Origin: Bacteroidales bacterium
GTDB taxonomy: Bacteria > Bacteroidota > Bacteroidia > Bacteroidales > UBA932
NCBI GenBank assembly: GCA_030695025.1
Contig: JAUYTX010000035.1
Coordinates: forward strand, 1 to 32,737
DNA: 32,737 nt
Direction of reading: 5' to 3'
Shown: one piece after another, positions 14,313 through 18,780 of the stretch
Numbering within the stretch: the stretch's first letter is position 1
Layout: each line of letters opens with the position of its first letter
Notes under the pieces: generated by a model
Seen by the model: only the letters and a program-made list of their open reading frames with translations
The model's database searches: none
What the model was told of the DNA's origin: nothing
Program-made: the position numbers and the translations under genes

Positions 14313-14537
14313 CAAATTTCAAACACAGCCATTGCATAACTCTTCAAAATTGCTTAATTTTATTAGTTGCAGATAAGCCCGAAACTTTCACTGCATCATT
14401 TTTTCAGTGCTTATTTTCAGCTCTTTTTAAAACTCATTTTTTTACAAATTAAAGCAAATATTGAACTTTCAATATTACAATTTGGTTATACAGTTCAGTC
14501 TATCATCAAGACATTCATAAACACAATGGTTAAGACT

Positions 14538-14577
14538 ATTTATTAAGACAATCGTTCCGACAATTTATTAAGACAAT
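14538..14577. repeat. Direct repeats upstream of sucC
   Basis: The 15-mer ATTTATTAAGACAAT occurs at 14538-14552 and 14563-14577 (period 25), with a third shorter relative (GACAATTATTTAA) running up to the sucC start. They lie 13-52 bp before the ATG and could be regulator sites. The rest of the gap 14313-14537 is AT-rich and shows no gene. Confidence 0.5.
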
Positions 14578-14589
14578 TATTTAATTCAT

Positions 14590-15735
14590 ATGAAAATACA
14601 CGAATATCAGGCAAAAGATTTCTTTACCCAATACAGCATTCCCGTTGCTGAGGGTATCGTCTGCAGGGATGTGGATTCCTGCCTTGAAACCTACAAAAAT
14701 CTCTTTTCTGAGGTTGTTGTAATTAAGGCTCAGGTTCATACCGGTGGGAGAGGAAAGGCCGGAGGGGTAAAGATTGCAAAATCTCCACAGGAGGTCAGGC
14801 AGCATGCCGAGGCTATTTTGGGCATGGATATCAAGGGCTTTAAGGTCGATCGGGTAATGGTTGCACAGGGTGTCAATATTGCATCTGAGTATTACCTCAG
14901 TTTTGTGATTGATCGCAATTCCAGGTCTGTGGTACTTATCATGAGTCGTGAGGGGGGTATGGATATTGAGGAGGTTGCTGCTACTGCTCCTGAGAAAATT
15001 ATTAAAATTGCCATCGATCCGTTAATTGGTATTCCTGAATTTCTTGCAAGAAAGGCAGCATTTATGCTTTTTGACAGCTTTGATGTTGTAAAACAGGCCG
15101 TTCCTCTCATTCAAAACCTCTACAAACTCTTTACCGAAACAGATGCTTCGCTTGCTGAGATCAACCCCCTAGTAGTTACAAAGGAGGGCAAGCTGATTGC
15201 CATTGACGGAAAGATGAATTTTGATGACAATGCCTTGTATCGTCAACCTGAAGTGGAGGCTCTGTTTGAGCCAGATGAGGAGGAGAAGAGGGAGCAGGAT
15301 GCCAAATCCAAAGGGTTCAGCTATGTTCACCTTAAAGGGAAGATCGGATGTATGGTTAATGGTGCCGGCCTGGCAATGGCCACAATGGATATGATTAAGC
15401 TGTATGGTGGTGAACCGGCCAACTTTCTGGATATCGGAGGAAGTTCCAACCCCAATAAGGTTATCGAGGCAATGAAGTTGCTTACGAGTGACCCTGAGGT
15501 AAATGTGGTTTTGATTAATATTTTCGGAGGTATTACCAGATGCGACGATGTTGCAAGGGGTCTGATAGAGGCATTCAAGTATCTTAAAACTGATATTCCT
15601 GTGGTTATTCGCCTCACGGGGACAAATGAGGCAGAGGGCAGAGAGTTGCTCAAAGGCACCTCTTTTCACAGTGCCCAAACAATGAGCATGGCAATAAGCA
15701 AATCGGTTGAACTTAGTAAAAGCAGAATCAAATGA
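14590..15735 (+). CDS. sucC: Succinate-CoA ligase, beta subunit
   Basis: This is the ADP/GDP-forming beta subunit, which with SucD interconverts succinyl-CoA and succinate with substrate-level phosphorylation in the TCA cycle or reductive succinate metabolism. The 381-residue length and order are canonical: the N-terminal [12 protein letters not shown], the ATP-grasp [24 protein letters not shown] with the Mg-binding Asn, and the C-terminal CoA-ligase domain with FLDIGG and [11 protein letters not shown]. The last codons overlap sucD by 4 bp (ATGA), so the subunits are translationally coupled. Confidence 0.97.
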
Positions 15736-16595
15736 GCATACTTATAAATAAAGATACAAGACTGGTAGTGCAGGGCATTACCGGCAGAGACGGAGGTTTT
15801 CATGCAGCAAAAATGGCGGAATACGGAACAAATGTGGTTGCGGGTACATCTCCGGGTAAGGGAGGTCAACATGCTTTGGGAATTCCTGTGTTCAACAGTG
15901 TTGCCGATGCTGTCACTAAGGAGGGTGCAAATACCTCTGTAATTTTTGTTCCTGCACCTTTTGTCAAGGATGCAATAATGGAGGCTGCCGATTCGGGAGT
16001 TTCACTTATCATTTGCATTACCGAAGGTGTTCCTACACTTGATGTAGTGGAGGCCAAACGATACGCCGACCTTAAAGGTGTTTCGCTTATTGGCCCGAAT
16101 TGCCCGGGACTTATCTCTCCCGGCAAATCACTTGTTGGAATCATGCCCGGCAACATCTTCAAGGAGGGCAGAACAGGCGTTATTTCAAGAAGCGGCACAC
16201 TTACATACGAGGTGGTTTATAACCTTACGCTTAGCGGAATAGGGCAATCAACAGCAATAGGTGTCGGAGGCGACCCTGTGGTAGGCCTTTACTACCTCGA
16301 ACTACTTAAAATGTTTGAGAATGACCCAGAAACCGATTCAATCGTTTTAATTGGTGAGATCGGAGGCGACGCCGAAGAGCAGGCAGCGCAATACATAAAA
16401 GATCACATTACCAAACCCGTTGCCGCCTTCATTGCCGGAGTCACAGCACCTGCCGGCAAACGCATGGGTCATGCAGGCGCCATTATTTCAAGCGGAACCG
16501 GAACGGCCAAAGAGAAAACAGACGCCTTTGCAAAAGCAGGTGTACCCGTCGCCTCCGAACCCGCCCAAATCCCCGACCTGCTTCGAGCACAATAA
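15732..16595 (+). CDS. sucD: Succinate-CoA ligase, alpha subunit
   Basis: This 287-residue subunit binds CoA in its N-terminal Rossmann domain ([12 protein letters not shown]) and carries the phosphohistidine His247 in RMGHAGAI, matching the position in the E. coli enzyme. [10 protein letters not shown] and SRSGTLTYE are further family signatures. It overlaps sucC by 4 bp and forms a two-gene operon. GC content rises near the 3' end. A hairpin without a U-tract follows at 16647-16675. Confidence 0.97.
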
Positions 16596-16740: not shown

Positions 16741-16846
16741 AAGTGTATTATAAATGAGACTTTTTGAATTTGAAAACATTTTTGACAAAGTCTATTTTGT
16801 ATATGCCTGAAATACAACGATATGTCCAAAAGTGGCGCGGAGATTA
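16741..16846 (-). repeat. Dispersed repeat copy B
   Basis: Read on the minus strand, this 106-bp stretch aligns over its whole length with 49-155. The outermost 21 bp (core ATCTCCGCGCCACTTTTGG) and the inner block AAAAAGTCTCATTT are nearly identical, and the middle is about two-thirds alike by eye. As in copy A, it begins within or immediately after a TAA stop codon, here that of the radical SAM gene. The second, inverted arm found at 173-195 is missing here, so copy B looks like a half element. Confidence 0.7.
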
Positions 16847-17920
16847 ACGCAGCTTCTGGTAGTGGCAAAACATTAGCTCTTCGTTTTCGTTGCGTAGGTG
16901 CATGCCGTTGCCCAAGCAGTAGCGGAATTGCTTGCAATCCTGGCAGATTCCGTTTTTTGCCCAGCTTCGGTCACGAAACTTTTGAAACCCGTTGTTCCAG
17001 ACATCTATGAACGAATCTTTGTAGATGTTGCCCTGGTAAAAATTTGCCCTAATACTCGGGCAACCCGATATGGAACCATCTGCCAATACCGAAGCAACCG
17101 TAACACCTGCCTGGCAACTGTAAAACCCATCTCTCACCTCGGCCTCGTAACCTCCCAGAAACCCTTCACATCCATATGAAACTTTAATTAAACCCTCTTT
17201 TCTGGTCTGAGCAATAAACTCCATTAACCTTTTAAACTGCTCGCTGCTCAAAGTGAGCTGGCTGTCTCCGGCTGCCCTGCCTGCCGGAAATACTGTAAAC
17301 AGCCTCCACTGCTTTACACCAATTGAAATGAGAAAACCTCTGAATTGCTCAAGCGAATCTAAATTCCTGGGATTTGCACAAGTGACAATATCCCACACCA
17401 CCTCACTCTCATTTGTCAGCATCTTAACTGCTTCCAAAGCATTTGCGTAACTGCGGGCATTGCAGCGCATCCAGTTGTGTTCCTGCTCAAACCCATCAAG
17501 ACTTACAGTCATTGTGTGCAAGCCCGATCGCATTAGTGATTCGAGTCTGTCACGTGTCAATGCCAGCCCGTTGGTAACCACTCCCCACGGGAAACCTCTG
17601 CGGTAAAGCTCAAGGCCGCACTCCTCAAGGTCTGCCCTGAGTAGTGCCTCTCCACCGGTGAAAATTATTAAAACTTTATTTGGATTTACGTGCGGTGTGA
17701 TTTCATCAATTACCTTGAAAAAATCGCCGGCCGGCATATCGTTCACAGCTGAATTGTGTTTGCAGTCGCTTCCGCAATGGCGGCAATTAAGATTACACCT
17801 TAAGGTACACTCCCAGAAAAGTGTGCGAAGAGGGTGTTCGTTTACAACTCGTTTGTATTGCAGGCGAAACAGCTCCAACCCTGCTCTTTTTCTGAGAATG
17901 ATCCCTTTGGCTGCGGACAT
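16844..17920 (-). CDS. Radical SAM/SPASM enzyme of the rSAM/lipoprotein system
   Basis: The 358-residue protein has the radical SAM cluster motif CNLNCRHC (Cys42, Cys46, Cys49), the glycine-rich FTGGEALLR, and a C-terminal SPASM-like region with Cys-rich stretches (SCQAGVTVASVLADGSISGC, then GICQDCKQFRYCLGN and a final FCHY) that should bind auxiliary Fe-S clusters. Such enzymes modify peptides or proteins. About 230 bp upstream on the same strand is a small lipoprotein gene; this pairing corresponds to the rSAM/lipoprotein families defined in TIGRFAMs (TIGR04133 with TIGR04134, from memory). The probable substrate is therefore the lipoprotein, though no chemistry is established. The stop codon lies in the dispersed repeat copy B. 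Confidence 0.88.
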   Translation of the reverse strand: MSAAKGIILRKRAGLELFRLQYKRVVNEHPLRTLFWECTLRCNLNCRHCGSDCKHNSAVNDMPAGDFFKVIDEITPHVNPNKVLIIFTGGEALLRADLEECGLELYRRGFPWGVVTNGLALTRDRLESLMRSGLHTMTVSLDGFEQEHNWMRCNARSYANALEAVKMLTNESEVVWDIVTCANPRNLDSLEQFRGFLISIGVKQWRLFTVFPAGRAAGDSQLTLSSEQFKRLMEFIAQTRKEGLIKVSYGCEGFLGGYEAEVRDGFYSCQAGVTVASVLADGSISGCPSIRANFYQGNIYKDSFIDVWNNGFQKFRDRSWAKNGICQDCKQFRYCLGNGMHLRNENEELMFCHYQKLR

Positions 17921-17991
17921 CGTGTAAAAATGTTGAATGCGGAAATTGTGTTTAAAATGCGGGCTAAGTAGTTTGTTATTTGTGTTTTATC

Positions 17992-18140
17992 ATGAATAAT
18001 TCAACTGTGCAAATCTTCCTTCAAGATTTGTTATGAACGAATTATTTTGTGCGAATTTTTTTGTTCAAAATTTTATGAATGAATTATTCTTTAAAAAATT
18101 TCTGTACAAATCTTTCTGAACGAATTACTCTTCGAGAGCC
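17992..18140. repeat. About 3.5 imperfect repeats of a 42-bp unit
   Basis: Units begin at about 17992, 18033, 18075 and 18117 with ATGAATAAT/TGAACGAATTA-type starts and share TGTGC(G/A)AAT and TTCAA(G/A)ATTT blocks. The period is 41-42 bp. Read on the plus strand, units 2 and 3 form a 28-codon frame (18033-18119) made of two similar 14-residue halves beginning MNELF; this is more likely a by-product of the repeat than a gene. The array sits between the lipoprotein stop and the radical SAM start, so both genes are on the opposite strand to that frame. Confidence 0.6.
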
Positions 18141-18151
18141 TTATCACATTA

Positions 18152-18610
18152 TTATTTACTATTAAGTTTCACGGTAATCTCTTTGGTGGCTTCTCCTTTA
18201 TACCACGATGAAGATCCGTCTTTAAGCTCTGTCGTTTTAATTTCAACGGTTTGCTCTTTTGTTGCGAATTCTCCGTTCAGAGAGCCGTCAACATCTTCAA
18301 ATGTCAGGCTGAAAGATATGTCTCTGGGGAATTCTCTAATGTAGCTTTTGACAAACTGGCCGTTTGCATCGGTAGTTAGAGTTTTAAAGTCGTAATAGCT
18401 GTCTTGTGGCAATCCCGATTTACCGATTGTTACCTGAATACCGGGTATTGGCATATTTGAATTATCGGTAACCCTTCCTTTGACTGAATAGTTTGCATTT
18501 GGGGTGCCATATTCAACAGGCATATCCCAAGGTTCGCAGGAGCTAAATCCAAGAACAGATAAAAAAGCTGTAAGAAGCCATCCGCTCACTTTTTGGTACC
18601 TGATTTTCAT
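18152..18610 (-). CDS. Small lipoprotein, partner of the radical SAM enzyme
   Basis: From the ATG at 18610 the protein has 152 residues. The signal peptide ends in the lipobox LGFSSC with Cys25 as the lipidated residue; longer starts (to 18658) would put extra residues before the signal. After EPWDMPVEYGTP comes a carboxypeptidase-regulatory-like beta domain (YSVKGRVTD, PIPGIQVTIG, TDANGQFVKSY), followed by a C-terminal strand-rich tail. The YGTPNANYSVKG stretch and the adjacent radical SAM gene identify it as the lipoprotein of the Bacteroidetes rSAM/lipoprotein system. It is likely exported to the outer membrane. It may be modified in the cytoplasm first, but the modified residue cannot be guessed. 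A pentanucleotide array lies 56-170 bp upstream. Confidence 0.82.
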   Translation of the reverse strand: MKIRYQKVSGWLLTAFLSVLGFSSCEPWDMPVEYGTPNANYSVKGRVTDNSNMPIPGIQVTIGKSGLPQDSYYDFKTLTTDANGQFVKSYIREFPRDISFSLTFEDVDGSLNGEFATKEQTVEIKTTELKDGSSSWYKGEATKEITVKLNSK

Positions 18611-18665: not shown

Positions 18666-18780
18666 ATGACACGATGCGATATGATATGATATGATATGAT
18701 ATGATATGGTATGATATGGTATGATCTAATGCGAACTAATGTGATTCGATATAATGCGACCTAATGTGATTAAATTAAAT
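18666..18780. repeat. Degenerate pentanucleotide (ATGAT)n array, about 23 units
   Basis: From 18666 to 18780 the sequence keeps a strict 5-bp register. The centre has five exact ATGAT units (18681-18705) followed by alternating ATGGT and ATGAT (18706-18725). The flanks hold variants such as GCGAT, CTAAT, GTGAT and TAAAT. No gene is present. The array lies directly upstream of the lipoprotein gene and could affect its transcription by changing length. Confidence 0.8.

Follow-up and report, generated by a model that had tools for sequence, protein, structure and literature searches.

Predicted tyramine excision at an X-Tyr-Gly tag by a radical SAM/SPASM enzyme linked to a lipoprotein in Bacteroidales

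Introduction

Radical S-adenosylmethionine (SAM) enzymes with a SPASM domain carry out many peptide reactions, and anSME, SuiB, SkfB and PqqE are SPASM or related enzymes that modify peptides or proteins. Among the described systems, the one that most resembles the locus presented here is the splicease PlpX/PlpY. Passages of two publications describe that PlpX acts naturally at MYG and LYG, accepts GYG, and works without the leader of a ribosomally synthesized and post-translationally modified peptide (PMC10533398, PMC11002830), and a published table of splicease tags includes ...GYGLPI, i.e. with a Pro two residues after the Gly (PMC10533398). Several sites per PlpX substrate with a variable X residue have been reported (PMC10533398, PMC10373908). 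According to a review passage that cites Scott 2022, the transformation is broadly distributed and the resulting residues are protease-inhibitory (PMC10373908).

The present work deals with a gene pair in a stretch of 32,737 nucleotides (hereafter the window; contig JAUYTX010000035.1 of assembly GCA_030695025.1) from a Bacteroidales bacterium. The pair encodes a radical SAM/SPASM enzyme and a lipoprotein, and an original prediction made from the DNA letters alone had proposed the second as the probable substrate of the first. Going beyond that prediction, a comparison of sequences across genomes indicates that the common denominator of the enzyme's neighbours is a short X-Tyr-Gly tag, not the lipoprotein fold, and that this tag matches the XYG motif of the spliceases.

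Results

Both genes were found on the minus strand at the positions predicted (16844-18610), the lipoprotein gene first and the enzyme gene 231 bp downstream (Table 1). The proposed family identities are in agreement with the profiles: the enzyme matched TIGR04133 with 587.8 bits (E 5.8e-177; curated cut-off 425) and the lipoprotein matched TIGR04134 with 132.2 bits (E 1.5e-38; curated cut-off 39.8), its only match in NCBIfam. Radical_SAM (PF04055, 69.2 bits) and SPASM (PF13186, 38.5 bits) were above the Pfam cut-offs in the enzyme, and CarboxypepD_reg stayed below threshold in the lipoprotein (28.6 vs 32.3 bits). The genome of the window (G000; 2.25 Mb in 104 contigs, 91% complete) carries one above-cut-off member of each family. 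With 107.4 bits against TIGR04103 (nif11-class maturase 3; cut-off 725), the enzyme is not a member of that family. The prediction of a lipidated protein of 152 residues with a signal peptide is compatible with the lipobox-like Cys25 read from the sequence by eye.

The linkage of the two genes was followed across 393 genomes belonging to the order of the window, in which an enzyme was accepted at E 1e-60 or better and a family lipoprotein at 45 bits or more. The enzyme was present in 97 genomes, 87 of them above the curated cut-off, and the family lipoprotein accompanied it in 82 of these 97 vs 4 of the 296 enzyme-negative genomes. The linkage in other genomes, with which the original prediction stood or fell, is far beyond chance. 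A search of the 393 genomes with alignment A1 left a gap between family members (at least 47.8 bits) and other matches (at most 37.7 bits). A set of 116 loci with 118 enzyme open reading frames (ORFs) was then assembled from the order matches listed and one genome elsewhere in the phylum; a profile grown from the window lipoprotein detected relatives in 92 of these loci, mostly upstream of the enzyme gene on the same strand, the genes often abutting or overlapping. No widely recurring third gene resembling a pathway partner was found among the locus protein clusters, the other large clusters being other-frame ORFs over the enzyme gene, an 11-locus cluster resembling an ABC ATPase and clusters of tagged substrates. 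The order survey was used instead of a phylum-wide draw, where the enzyme (E 1e-60) was present in just 2 of 296 genomes, the window's included. In that draw, TIGR04134 matched 46 of 296 genomes at E 0.001, and only the window's own genome and G124 were above the cut-off; the others, many of them in frames of at least 600 residues, were not counted as family. The G124 protein (42.9 bits, just above the cut-off, in a genome without enzyme match) lacks the Tyr-Gly pair. Two loci of one genus (L104 and L114; genomes G591 and G655) each hold two enzyme-lipoprotein units in tandem. The pair is also present in the culturable commensal Parabacteroides distasonis (L153).

The feature common to the neighbours of the enzyme is an X-Tyr-Gly-x-Pro tag located behind the signal peptide. 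In the region searched, YG was present in 112 of 114 profile lipoproteins and YGxP in 98 of 114; the residue X before YG was C in 41, E in 33, M in 9, K in 7, A in 6, Q in 6, L in 4, G in 2, I in 2, V in 1 and F in 1 (n=112). Among 332 other proteins of the loci, YGxP occurred 12 times in 112,015 residues (0.107 per 1000), i.e. about 1.6% of 150-residue proteins should carry it by chance. The invariant columns of alignment A4 are C25, Y34 and G35; its 37 rows had been picked by profile score and not directly by motif, although the profile was built from YGxP-selected rows and is biased accordingly. P37 is invariant in alignment A1 as well, which was disregarded, as the A1 rows had been picked by motif. 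Two classes can be distinguished by the position of the tag. In the CYG class X is Cys (41 of 112 family lipoproteins), lipobox-like in 39 by a simple sequence rule, and in the AQYG class (6 of 112) the tag comes after Ala-Gln, as if behind a signal peptidase I site. Several tags can occur within one protein, and P-x-A-x-[YF] is conserved after the tag in many. Taken by enzyme, an exported-looking YG neighbour was present at 107 of the 118 enzyme ORFs (93 by family profile, 13 by YGxP, 1 by YG); this union was preferred to a strict signal filter, which gave 92 of 118 and missed listed lipoproteins. Of the 11 remaining enzyme ORFs, L147-L149 are sub-cut-off and L074, L123 and L143 lie at contig edges; the other five are L077, L082, L101, L108 and L146, of which L077 retains the apparent tail of a lipoprotein gene.

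The tag is also carried by proteins outside the family. At nine loci (L061, L064, L067, L072, L073, L079, L084, L085 and L089) the neighbours are lipoproteins rich in Lys and Glu that look like coiled coils by eye; each carries one to three YGxP tags, most often VYGSP. The enzymes of these loci form one side of a branch (97) within a 29-row set that includes the window enzyme (95 in the Shimodaira-Hasegawa-like approximate likelihood ratio test, quick method). They nest there: the fold of the substrate has changed while the tag was kept. Lipopeptides of 51-62 residues with the tag were found at L096, L093 and L091, and a charged lipoprotein at L102 carries KYGVP, KYGVP and KYGIP. In five relatives Gly stands two residues after Tyr: KYGGP (L087, L091), LYGGP (L226), MYGGP (L228) and VYGGP (L280).

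A survey of named genomes covered 80 loci among the matches listed. Within this listing, 56 loci are near family level, 28 with a family lipoprotein and 24 more with a same-strand YGxP ORF of less than 200 residues, whose export was not checked one by one; L234, L235, L237 and L245 have neither neighbour type, L234 and L235 having YG without Pro. All 38 family lipoproteins (at least 45 bits) of the listed named loci contain YG. Tagged lipoproteins were present in Fibrobacter (L248), Neomarinimicrobiota (L249) and Spirochaetaceae (L252) records. Enzymes 32-38% identical to that of the window (Clostridia, Lachnospiraceae, Erysipelotrichaceae, Coriobacteriia and a planctomycete) adjoin other proteins tagged with VYGPP or LYGPP, up to five times per protein (L269, L284); at L268 a tagged neighbour was not found. 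The nine most distant relatives among the matches listed (L285-L293) showed no exported-looking YGxP neighbour, the YGSP of L289 being located in a short ORF that overlaps the enzyme gene in another frame. As separate observations, exported-looking proteins with two to five VYGPP/LYGPP tags stand beside TIGR04133-like enzymes at L269, L277, L278 and L284 (Coriobacteriia, Erysipelotrichaceae, Lachnospiraceae); those of L269, L278 and L284 score under the family cut-off. Signal-less-looking proteins with zinc-ribbon-like CxxC pairs and CIYGPPP between them adjoin such an enzyme at L274 (3509-3817) and L275 (3671-3943).

PlpX-like enzymes were recognised by their loci. In Nostoc (L151), a TIGR04103 enzyme (853 bits) follows a Nif11 precursor ending in LYGLPPELF and precedes a small protein taken as occupying the PlpY position; L283 (Xenococcaceae, cyanobacterial), the locus of a near relative of the Nostoc enzyme, has three Nif11-like precursors with PYGLPPNLFFQ, LYGLPPSPVM and IYGVVISE ends. 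A tree of 48 enzymes was built with the outgroup that the searches offered and without PlpX itself or characterised AhbD, NirJ, PqqE and anSME. A 32-row group containing TIGR04133, its distant relatives, the PlpX-like and the DUF1843-linked enzymes formed one side of a branch supported at 98/94, and the same branch was recovered after removal of four long or odd rows (96/95, and 95% of 200 bootstrap trees). MftC, TIGR04053 and L285-L293 were placed outside this group. Beside TIGR03913-type enzymes, DUF1843 peptides with PYGP in Azospirillum (L154, 2308-2520) and PYGA in Aureibacter (L297, 2147-2860) were noticed; they are perhaps splicing substrates too.

The fate of the tag in the absence of the enzyme was followed in the enzyme-negative genomes. 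In G599 the place of the tag reads AGNGSP, with Asn for Tyr and the Gly kept; in G662 (75% complete, where the enzyme may merely be absent from the assembly) it reads DNKTP, with neither Tyr nor Gly. In both, the residues that follow remain. The lipoprotein of G317 (L186) adjoins an enzyme gene of which only N-terminal and C-terminal pieces are recognisable, and a further relic, a short enzyme-gene fragment with a 57-residue frame, was observed in the window's genus (L301, 4513-4668, G598). Residues co-conserved only when both genes are present had been proposed as a check. Tyr-Gly is the clear candidate, the Tyr being lost in two of the four enzyme-negative genomes and YG kept in the other two; the presence/absence pattern is suggestive, agreeing with the substrate reading without being clean.

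Structure models were computed for both proteins. The AlphaFold2 model of the enzyme (mean predicted local distance difference test score, pLDDT, of 95) is closest among solved folds to anSMEcpe (4k39), then to SkfB, DesII, SuiB and PqqE, with 15-20% identity in the structural alignments. The stretch before CxxxCxxC measures 29-49 residues in TIGR04133 vs 18 in two PlpX-like enzymes. The lipoprotein model (mean pLDDT 86.8) shows a signal helix, a strand-free linker with Cys25 and the tag, then a beta-sandwich, for which Foldseek returned weak matches (E 2e-5 and weaker) to intradiol-dioxygenase, carboxypeptidase and transthyretin-like folds. LG[FILYVM] precedes the lipobox (in the window, e.g. 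18536-18570) in 68 of 109 family lipoproteins, in 16 of 52 others with YGxP and in 5 of 78 controls; these rows are not independent. Only as a lead, the signal peptide may also have the role of a leader.

Table 1. Features of the gene pair in the window.
Feature	Position	Strand	Basis
TIGR04133 radical SAM/SPASM protein, 358 aa; predicted splicease-like modifying enzyme	16844..17920	-	profiles, AlphaFold2 model
SPASM domain, residues 269-330; CX2CX5C present, last Cys of CX2CX5CX3C absent	16931..17116	-	Pfam, alignment
Radical SAM motif C42xxxC46xxC49	17774..17797	-	invariant in 43 rows of A2 and 61 rows of A3
AT-rich intergenic spacer, 231 bp	17921..18151	.	sequence
TIGR04134 lipoprotein, 152 aa; predicted substrate	18152..18610	-	sequence, profile
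Beta-sandwich domain, transthyretin / carboxypeptidase-regulatory-like	18155..18499	-	AlphaFold2, Foldseek
X-Tyr-Gly-x-Pro tag E33-Y34-G35-T36-P37, predicted modification (splice) site	18500..18514	-	Y34, G35 invariant in 37 rows of A4
Signal peptide with LGFSSC25 lipobox; Cys25 codon 18536-18538	18536..18610	-	by eye; Cys25 invariant in 37 rows of A4

The original prediction had also described both genes as flanked by repeats unique in the window, and this stands in part. A GATAT pentanucleotide array (18678-18725, or 18673-18727 with wider limits, which is 63-117 bp ahead of the lipoprotein gene; 8 overlapping matches when up to 3 mismatches are allowed vs 0.01 expected) is absent elsewhere in the window, and a 25-bp repeat pair (18723-18771) also lies upstream of the lipoprotein gene. 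The far side of the enzyme gene has no array, Tandem Repeats Finder listing no repeat between 14581 and 18038, and a 14-bp short repeat (18038-18074) lies in the intergenic spacer. A separate tandem array (14508-14581, 2.8 copies of a 25-bp unit) is located just upstream of ORFs at 14590-16595. The length of the GATAT array could alter promoter spacing (phase variation); the repeat argument contributes nothing to the functional interpretation.

Discussion

The linkage and the shared Tyr-Gly tag strongly support the proposal that the lipoprotein is the substrate of the enzyme, the chemistry itself being a prediction. The sequences make it very likely that the X-Tyr-Gly tag is the site of the reaction, and the analogy with PlpX makes tyramine excision by a splicease-like enzyme the probable reaction. 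The enzyme, a cytoplasmic protein, would edit the envelope lipoprotein before export, recognising the short X-Tyr-Gly-x-Pro tag beside the signal peptide. Its radical SAM chemistry would most likely excise the Tyr save its carbonyl, with a net loss of tyramine (C8H9NO, ~135.07 Da), and the chain would be rejoined. Sec export and lipidation should then bring the edited protein to the envelope, so that a dedicated protease or exporter would be unnecessary. Judging by sequence, most substrates carry a lipoprotein signal peptide, and a widely recurring third gene is lacking; the product should therefore be made in the cytoplasm and stay a whole envelope protein. We infer this order of events and the envelope role.

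Several observations weigh against this assignment. The profile scores of the enzyme show no special closeness to TIGR04103 (107 bits, compared with 117 for TIGR04053 and ~110 for TIGR03913, NirJ2 and AhbD), and closeness to TIGR04103 was dropped as evidence because other families score equally high. That PlpX belongs to TIGR04103 is itself deduced from the Nostoc locus. The fourth Cys of CX2CX5CX3C, present in PlpX-like enzymes, is absent in TIGR04133, which has extra invariant cysteines. No PlpY-like protein was found at TIGR04133 loci by phmmer, a weak negative with a single query (the small protein beside the Nostoc maturase); the search covered the small ORFs of L036-L150 and L214-L293, only L283 matched, and for the window genome it was confined to the locus. 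The five complete loci without a YG neighbour, together with L237 among the named loci, and four of the 32 rows of the tree group for which no XYG neighbour was shown (L155, L237, L268 and L282) point in the same direction. YG is retained in two of the four enzyme-negative genomes (G520, with two copies, and G317, with CYGTP), and it is missing from one, L193 (G423), of 17 unlinked family copies picked by eye in enzyme-positive genomes, the other 16 having it. Lastly, PlpXY is described as context-sensitive, with the majority of the FtsZ insertions that the table passage lists left unmodified (PMC10533398).

A different radical chemistry at the same Tyr-Gly tag, i.e. a cyclophane or other Tyr crosslink, hydroxylation or decarboxylation of the Tyr, or epimerisation, appears unlikely. 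It would suit the variety of SPASM peptide reactions, the auxiliary-cluster cysteines unlike those of PlpX-like enzymes, and the closest solved folds, which include anSME, SkfB, SuiB and PqqE and no splicease. The near-invariant Gly after Tyr suits the splicease rule. A three-residue cyclophane of the triceptide type requires a beta-carbon at the second residue after the aromatic one: Thr36 of the window is compatible with it, but that position is Gly in the five relatives named above. Sactipeptide and ranthipeptide maturases use core cysteines as thioether donors; the sole Cys of the window lipoprotein is the lipobox Cys25, and a thioether would need a usable Cys spacing, yet the preceding Cys lies at distances of 1 to 12 residues and beyond from the tag.

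Tyramine excision has also to be compared with the proposal that the tag is only a recognition or structural motif and that the enzyme modifies another residue or molecule, which we consider quite improbable. The P-x-A-x-[YF] stretch, retained in the two Tyr-less homologues, suggests that the protein has its own use for some of the motif, and the YG kept in two enzyme-negative genomes is in agreement with it. On the other hand, the non-family neighbours have little visible in common beyond the tag, bar some signal-peptide likeness, lipopeptides of 51-75 residues contain little besides it, and it is the Tyr in G599 and the Tyr and Gly in G662 that have gone while the following residues stay. 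An accidental pairing with an AhbD/NirJ-type cofactor enzyme, for which the AhbD and NirJ2 profile scores about equal to that of TIGR04103 could be quoted, is improbable in the extreme in view of the 82 of 97 vs 4 of 296 genomes, the genes often abutting or overlapping on one strand, and the lack of any widely recurring third family that looks like a pathway partner.

With tyramine excision, a family named merely 'radical SAM-associated putative lipoprotein' gains a concrete reaction with a single predicted mass shift. If true, backbone splicing would reach beyond small peptides and act on whole envelope proteins in roughly one in four of the order's sampled genomes (97 of 393), by enzymes that are leader-free and perhaps need no partner protein. 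Cell surfaces, among them many from bacteria of the animal gut judging by the record titles, would then carry a bioorthogonal, possibly protease-reactive group with a chemical reactivity not found in ordinary proteins. Since X would be the lipidated Cys in the CYG class and the first residue after the signal peptidase I site in the AQYG class, these proteins would have the altered residue at their mature N-terminus. As spliceotide ketoamides have been reported as protease inhibitors, the boldest and speculative part of our proposal is that of a surface protease trap. It is a tentative idea, rather doubtful as a whole, that many Bacteroidales may display lipid-anchored proteins with a backbone ketoamide warhead produced by tyramine splicing and with remodelled mature N-termini, and may catch foreign or host proteases as traps tethered to the membrane, where X would set the specificity and the LG[FILYVM] signal peptide would double as leader. 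No paper on TIGR04133, TIGR04134 or their family names, and none linking TIGR04133 with splicing, or a radical SAM enzyme and lipoprotein with a splicease, was found in the literature covered, the Scott 2022 survey lying outside this coverage; the novelty of the link, as its priority, is uncertain.

The comparison with known systems can be drawn as follows. The NCBIfam names of TIGR04133 and TIGR04134 state no chemistry, and some TIGR04133 partners escape the TIGR04134 profile yet share the XYG tag. The closest solved folds to the window enzyme include anSME, SuiB, SkfB and PqqE, whose substrate motifs do not fit XYGxP. The TIGR03913-type enzymes of the DUF1843 peptides (GDL-motif peptides) share the tree branch of the PlpX-like enzymes, whereas their peptides are small, without evident signal, and Tyr-Ala or motif-free in other copies. 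PlpX/PlpY and the present system have in common a radical SAM/SPASM enzyme, a target X-Tyr-Gly with variable X and, here, a near-invariant YG, a frequent Pro two residues after the Gly, repeated tags per substrate, and the supported branch that joins PlpX-like enzymes to TIGR04133. They differ in that a lipoprotein signal peptide takes the place of a Nif11 or nitrile-hydratase leader in the window protein, the substrates here being signal-peptide lipoproteins that are apparently kept whole.

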